This document shows positions 14,146-14,863 of a stretch of 37,307 bases of DNA, piece after piece. Made by a program: the position numbers and the translations under genes. The first letter of the stretch is position 1, and the number at the start of each line of letters is the position of its first letter. The notes beneath the pieces were generated by a model, which was not told where the DNA came from, ran no database searches, and saw only the letters and a list, made by a program, of their open reading frames with translations. Source of the stretch: Methanococcoides seepicolus. Its GTDB lineage: Archaea > Halobacteriota > Methanosarcinia > Methanosarcinales > Methanosarcinaceae. The stretch is taken from contig NZ_JAGSOI010000021.1 of assembly GCF_023684405.1 (NCBI RefSeq), forward strand, positions 1-37,307. The letters are read 5' to 3'.

Positions 14146-14214
14146 CGAAATTTGTATAAATAAGAGGACAAAGTCATTATTTTAAAGATGTTGACGAAAT
14201 TTGTATAAATAAGA
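14146..14214 (+). promoter_or_regulatory. Duplicated TATA promoter of the carbonic anhydrase gene
   Basis: CGAAATTTGTATAAATAAGA occurs at 14146-14165 and again, identically, at 14195-14214. Each copy holds a strong archaeal TATA box (TTTGTATAAATA). The downstream TATA ends about 23 bases before the start codon, giving a nearly leaderless message; the upstream copy would give a leader of about 50 bases. Confidence 0.7.
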
Positions 14215-14233: not shown

Positions 14234-14863
14234 ATGCCGGAAAATATAGAACACACCCCATTGACATCCTGGAATCCCGAGATGAAAGCTCCATCCATTG
14301 ACGATTCCGCATATATTCACCCACAAGCAATTGTGATCGGAGATGTAACCATTGGAAAACGAGTAATGGTGTCCCCCTTTGTATCCATAAGGGCCGATGA
14401 AGGTAGCCCCATCCATATTGACGACGACAGTAATGTTCAGGATGGAGTAATCATGCATGGCATGAAGACCATTGACATTAAAGGAAATCCAATTAAAGCA
14501 AATTAGGTGAATGTGGAAGGTAGACCATATTCAGTATATGTAGGAGAAAGAGTTTCAATTGCTCACCAATCACAGATACACGGCCCGGCTGCAGTCTGTG
14601 ATGATGCATTTCTCGCAATGCAGACACTGGTATTCAATGCAAATGTTGGCAAGGGCTCCGTGCTTGAACCCAAATCTGGTGCCTTTGGCGTGGACATTCC
14701 GGAGAACAGGTATGTCCCCGCAGGAATGATGATCACCAAACAAGAAGATGCAGACGCTCTGCCAGAAATATTCGAAGGATATTTCTTTGAAAAGACCAAC
14801 AGAGATGTAGTTTCCGTGAACATCGAGCTTGCTAAAGGATATAGGGAAAAGAGTGAAAAATAA
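14234..14863 (+). CDS. cam: Gamma-class carbonic anhydrase (Cam type) with in-frame TAG
   Basis: One continuous frame of 209 sense codons interrupted by a single TAG at 14504-14506; codon-for-codon homology to Methanosarcina thermophila Cam (recalled) continues on both sides. Left of the TAG are the hexapeptide beta-helix repeats, SIRADEG, SNVQDG and MHG; right of it are IAHQSQIHGPAAV and VSVNIELA. These match Cam residues Arg59, Asp61, Glu62, Gln75, His81, His117, His122 and Asn202, so the zinc/iron site would be complete only if the TAG is read through. In Methanosarcinaceae UAG encodes pyrrolysine, so a 210-residue Pyl protein is plausible. Otherwise it is a nonsense-disrupted gene, possibly restarting at GTG 14507. 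The acidic loop is replaced by basic residues (HGMKTIDIKGNP). No signal peptide is present, unlike M. thermophila Cam; an in-frame stop lies just upstream. Confidence 0.8.

Follow-up and report, generated by a model that had tools for sequence, protein, structure and literature searches.

The cam gene of Methanococcoides seepicolus very probably codes for a full-length carbonic anhydrase homologue of the gamma class with pyrrolysine at residue 97, inserted through ordinary decoding of an in-frame UAG by tRNAPyl. The gene lies in a stretch of 37,307 nucleotides (the window) from a 2.8 Mb assembly that is 99.97% complete with 4.4% contamination. As far as the genes tell, an ordinary non-methylamine enzyme appears to carry pyrrolysine through a whole Methanococcoides branch. 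The case bears on a wider question: is pyrrolysine in enzymes other than those of methylamine breakdown mere noise, or does evolution maintain it? Here, one codon can be compared at the same place in the genome between five TAG species, the cultured M. alaskense among them, and six CAG sisters. The importance of a pyrrolysine residue becomes testable in a well-understood family whose structures are solved. Routine annotation would end at the TAG and so break the gene.

A sequence-only reading of the window had described a single ungapped Cam frame with one TAG and homology on both sides, and alignment and frame reading agree with it (Table 1). The read-through product aligns gaplessly to Methanosarcina thermophila Cam (PDB 3ow5/1qrf/1thj; residues 4-207 on chain residues 10-213, E ~1e-77), with ~58% identity across 204 residues. 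The codons for His81 before the TAG and for His117, His122 and Asn202 after it are where that reading had put them. The two proteins differ at residue 97, which is Ile in M. thermophila and TAG here, and the Methanococcoides protein has no N-terminal leader. It matches the NCBIfam equivalog NF040597 (carb_anhyd) with an E of 1e-100 over profile positions 43-247 of 248. At 336 bits the match falls short of the curated threshold for the family (380 bits), owing to the absent leader region.

Table 1. The cam reading frame and associated sites, in window positions
Feature	Position	Strand	Remarks
cam-type gamma-carbonic anhydrase CDS	14234..14863	+	209 codons, one internal TAG, terminal TAA
In-frame TAG, proposed pyrrolysine	14504..14506	+	codon 91; residue 97 as numbered in M. 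thermophila Cam
GTG adjoining the TAG	14507..14509	+	Val98 under read-through; obvious restart codon if the protein were split
Metal ligand His81 codon	14456..14458	+	codon 75, 5' of TAG; Cam alignment
Metal ligand His117 codon	14564..14566	+	codon 111, 3' of TAG; Cam alignment
Metal ligand His122 codon	14579..14581	+	codon 116, 3' of TAG; Cam alignment
Asn202 codon	14819..14821	+	codon 196, 3' of TAG; Cam alignment
Counterpart of the acidic loop of Cam, KTIDIKGNPIKAN	14465..14503	+	Lys for Glu84; alignment, loop definition from PMC7199487 and PMC12648627
9-bp RNA hairpin just 3' of UAG	14508..14533	+	folding and shuffles; not taken as a conserved element
TATA-box-like TTTGTATAAATA	14200..14211	+	sequence; putative function

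The host has the genes to make and use pyrrolysine. The sequence-only reading had called for a search for pylT, pylS and pylBCD, and all of them are found in one cluster, pylT-S-B-C-D, at ~35.9-40.3 kb of contig C1. PylRS (pylS) matches TIGR02367 with 431 bits (G000:C1:36598-37314). PylB (583 bits), PylC (587 bits) and PylD (403 bits, G000:C1:39479-40252) all score over their curated cut-offs. Just upstream of pylS, around GGACTCTAAATCC (locus L049), lies a tRNAPyl-like gene with the anticodon CTA, recognised from its anticodon-loop motif and its location rather than by a tRNA program. Three mtmB copies in the same genome carry an in-frame TAG.

TAG is rarely used as a terminator in this genome. 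A recount of 34 genes in the window gives 18 TAA stops, 16 TGA stops and not one TAG, as had been noticed before. In a sample of ~390 kb of the genome, window included, TAG terminates 11 of 359 open reading frames of at least 100 amino acids; its background share among the three stop trinucleotides is 18.5%. Three of the 11 are the internal TAGs of mtmB and several of the others resemble spurious antisense frames. Genuine terminal TAGs are therefore few. Every Methanococcoides examined has one full-length copy of aRF1, and therefore termination at some UAGs is possible. A census of internal stops by codon usage fails to discriminate, with TAA/TGA pairs of neighbouring genes scoring equally well. 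The pylB gene itself (L049:17268-18509) ends in TAG, followed by 42 open codons up to a TGA, and this extension overlaps the start of pylC. If UAG were always sense here, PylB would gain a pyrrolysine and a C-terminal extension.

The TAG at codon 91 is common to five Methanococcoides: M. seepicolus (G000), SMBSF15, SMBSF09, the single-contig genome G045 and the isolate M. alaskense DSM 17273. In all six other Methanococcoides species examined the codon is CAG (Gln), and Cam is found in each of the 11 genomes. The TAG is hence not a private mutation of one species, which was the point to be checked in sister species. Chance and sequencing or assembly error are ruled out, since the TAG is common to five genomes that include the single-contig genome and the cultured isolate. 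The locus is syntenic in 8/8 genomes compared, between a response regulator and a rhodanese/fibrillarin/Nop cluster, and this gene order, common across the genus, rules out horizontal replacement by a foreign Cam. Between the TAG and CAG clades, Cam is 62-64% identical and most neighbour genes 66-87%. A second intact cam copy was not found in the genome, where the sole other match is weak (31%), and we reject redundancy through a second copy for this reason. Taken together, the pyl cluster, the TAGs in mtmB and the TAG in five species favour cam as a candidate pyrrolysine gene, as first proposed.

Twenty-nine Cams align without an internal gap; at position 97 they have I, L, Q, T or TAG. In other Methanosarcinaceae it is Ile, Leu, Gln or Thr, and Gln is coded by CAG there too. 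Among 186 genomes of the order, a TAG at this codon is found in no other genus. The sequence-only reading had pyrrolysine take the place of Ile. This holds against M. thermophila-type Cams, which have Ile, but not against the sister species, which have Gln (CAG). From these codons, the residue replaced was probably Gln.

Both halves of the gene look constrained. Within the TAG clade there are 19 synonymous and 10 nonsynonymous changes before the TAG (p=5e-6), and 16 and 11 after it (p=3.3e-4). About one quarter of changes would be expected to be synonymous by chance. The counts, taken with the species as a star, are approximate. They indicate purifying selection upstream and downstream of the TAG. 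The TAG clade keeps 22 of the 23 residues before the TAG that are invariant in 24 TAG-free Cams, and 36 of the 37 after it; the exceptions, A to V and I to F, are both mild. The clade has diverged only modestly (dS ~0.03-0.29), and therefore keeping TAG rather than TAA or TGA is by itself weak evidence.

Alignment and structural model agree on a beta-helix with the zinc ligands His81, His117 and His122. The AlphaFold monomer model, in which Lys takes the place of pyrrolysine, reaches a pLDDT of 92.8 and a pTM of 0.89. It puts residue 91 at a loop end, immediately ahead of a short hairpin formed by strands 92-94 and 97-99, in a stretch of slightly lower confidence. The protein keeps Arg59, Glu62, Gln75, His81, His117, His122 and Asn202. 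It loses Glu84 (to Lys) and Tyr200 (to Ser), so carbonic anhydrase activity is not assured. The acidic loop of Cam comprises Glu84, Glu88 and Glu89, with Glu84 as the proton shuttle (PMC7199487, PMC12648627). The sequence-only reading placed the TAG at the end of this loop and called the loop acidic; here it reads KTIDIKGNPIKAN, is not acidic and has Lys84, and that part of the claim falls. A part in catalysis through an acidic loop is therefore unsupported. The loop is strongly remodelled in the TAG lineage; position 84 is Lys throughout the TAG clade and Gln in the remaining Methanococcoides. Judged by its residues, the product is not an assured Cam enzyme, and Cam homologue is the safer name for it: it lacks the Glu84 shuttle, which is also absent from the CamH subclass (PMC7199487).

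Cam domains also occur in tandem. One frame of 729 amino acids (L101, G122:C151:20709-22571, minus strand) has three of them, together with a leader of twin-arginine-like character and a C-terminal tail of the PGF type; from its layout it is possibly a covalently linked gamma-CA trimer. Another locus (L102, in G111) has at least two Cam domains in a frame that runs off the contig.

The hairpin that follows the UAG has a z of -2.3 against shuffles for a 101-nt stretch. In SMBSF09 two of the nine pairs cannot form, and synonymous changes are only weakly depleted over the next 33 codons (p=0.09), so conservation is not convincing and the hairpin is not adopted as a PYLIS-type element. Upstream of cam, the TATA-like TTTGTATAAATA lies ~26 nt from the start codon and is identical in all five TAG species, and its position suggests that the mRNA may be leaderless or nearly so. 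Ahead of the gene (window 14149-14211), TTTGTATAAATAAGA is present twice, ~50 bp apart; the copy beside the start codon is identical in the five TAG species and the upstream copy is degenerate.

How could the TAG have arisen? With CAG in the sisters and TAG in the five species, the parsimonious event is one C-to-T transition, which would have turned the Gln97 codon CAG into TAG in the ancestor of the five. The UAG would then be read by Pyl-tRNAPyl without a special element, as in the methylamine methyltransferases. Pyrrolysine would be tolerated because position 97 is variable and lies at a loop end, and the codon would have been retained afterwards. We infer all three of pyrrolysine insertion, an active carbonic anhydrase as the product and a change that was near-neutral rather than adaptive. 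Full-length Cam in the TAG species would presumably depend on the pyrrolysine supply.

A variant of this explanation has pyrrolysine selected, either for a function in the loop or for coupling the Cam level to the pyrrolysine supply on methylamines. The TAG is fixed in five species, whereas an in-frame TAG in thiI of G045 (below) is private to that genome. The TAG lineage also has an extensively remodelled loop, and in Acetohalobium pyrrolysine decoding is known to be regulated by substrate (PMC8211752). But the position is variable and accepts I, L, Q and T elsewhere, one step from CAG to TAG explains the origin, no independent TAG occurs at the codon in the 186 genomes and no conserved RNA element is seen. 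We consider selection fairly unlikely and, from the variable position and the one-step origin, favour tolerated over selected pyrrolysine. It is likewise unlikely that pyrrolysine is functional in the specific sense that, together with the remodelled Lys loop lacking the acidic shuttle, it aids catalysis or makes the output of carbonic anhydrase depend on how much pyrrolysine is supplied. If true, selection would here act on a pyrrolysine enzyme that has no part in methylamine metabolism.

The main rival to pyrrolysine is a split protein. Translation would stop at the UAG and restart at the adjoining GTG, and chains of 90 and 118 residues would assemble into one gamma-CA subunit. GTG directly follows the TAG in all five TAG species and GTA stands there in five of the six sisters, both halves are conserved and the break lies in the loop and hairpin region of the model. 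However, Val or Ile is normal at position 98 in all relatives, GTG is already present in one species of the CAG clade and the junction has no indel, overlap or stop-type change. The Shine-Dalgarno match upstream of the GTG is just 3 bases, in a crude test in which starts were crudely chosen and many window genes do no better. The cell also has pyl genes and TAG-containing mtmB, and on balance a split enzyme is very unlikely. Simple termination, with the N-terminal 90 residues or nothing useful made, fits the presence of aRF1 and the intact hexapeptide-repeat match of the N-terminal part alone. We reject it on the selection and invariant residues found 3' of the TAG, and five species share the TAG with no further disabling change. 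This contrasts with the Cam of a Methanosarcina-genus MAG (L100, G179:C447:5673-6281), which has two in-frame TAGs at an otherwise invariant Glu and Gln and lacks Arg59 and the Gly following His122; by these losses that cam is probably a decaying gene. A pseudogene in Methanococcoides is highly improbable. The sisters' Gln at the site would suit a near-cognate or other suppressor tRNA that reads UAG as a standard amino acid such as Gln. This has the slimmest chance of all, given a dedicated tRNAPyl/PylRS pair and complete biosynthesis genes in the cell, though the search for another CUA tRNA was not exhaustive.

Pyrrolysine decoding of the cam UAG would resemble known cases only in part. MtmB, MtbB and MttB show UAG decoding in the same cells. 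In contrast to Cam, where the residue would sit at a variable position in one clade only, their pyrrolysine is an active-site residue conserved in nearly all methanogen copies. A closer likeness is Thg1, the tRNAHis guanylyltransferase of Methanosarcina acetivorans, also a non-methylamine enzyme with an in-frame amber codon, in which pyrrolysine was observed but is not essential for activity (PMC2933860). The Thg1 TAG occurs in M. acetivorans only, whereas the Cam TAG is common to five species; pyrrolysine was seen in the Thg1 protein and the Cam case is known from genes. Thus pyrrolysine outside methylamine metabolism is already known, and conservation across a clade is what is unusual here. 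In their main text, surveys that predict pyrrolysine genes (PMC1242214, PMC3639795) do not mention carbonic anhydrase, apparently because their Methanococcoides genome is that of M. burtonii. A literature search turned up no earlier account of a carbonic anhydrase with pyrrolysine. A genome-wide code in which TAG means pyrrolysine would predict pyrrolysine at any internal TAG in Methanococcoides, but M. burtonii-type species carry CAG in cam. Such a code was reportedly described for some archaea, Methanococcoides among them, by Kivenson and colleagues in Science in 2025, and Cam is said not to have been singled out.

In-frame TAGs also occur in other genes. In G045, where MtbB has its expected TAG, the tRNA 4-thiouridine synthase ThiI has an in-frame TAG at codon 310 (G045:C1:1404526-1405695; L083:4523-5698, minus strand). 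In ten of ten sister species this codon is Tyr (TAT/TAC), which makes ThiI of G045 another candidate pyrrolysine protein, limited to a single species. So scattered TAGs do occur in ordinary genes; against them the Cam TAG stands out as older and common to several species. Another G045 protein, of unknown family and with no NCBIfam match, has in-frame TAGs at codons 334 and 408 (L084:1668-2894, minus strand). Finally, the M. seepicolus genome encodes an MtmB homologue without TAG, with Met at the pyrrolysine position (L004, G000:C104:4660-6009). It is possibly of the non-pyrrolysine kind reported for tetramethylammonium use in M. methylutens (PMC13044021).
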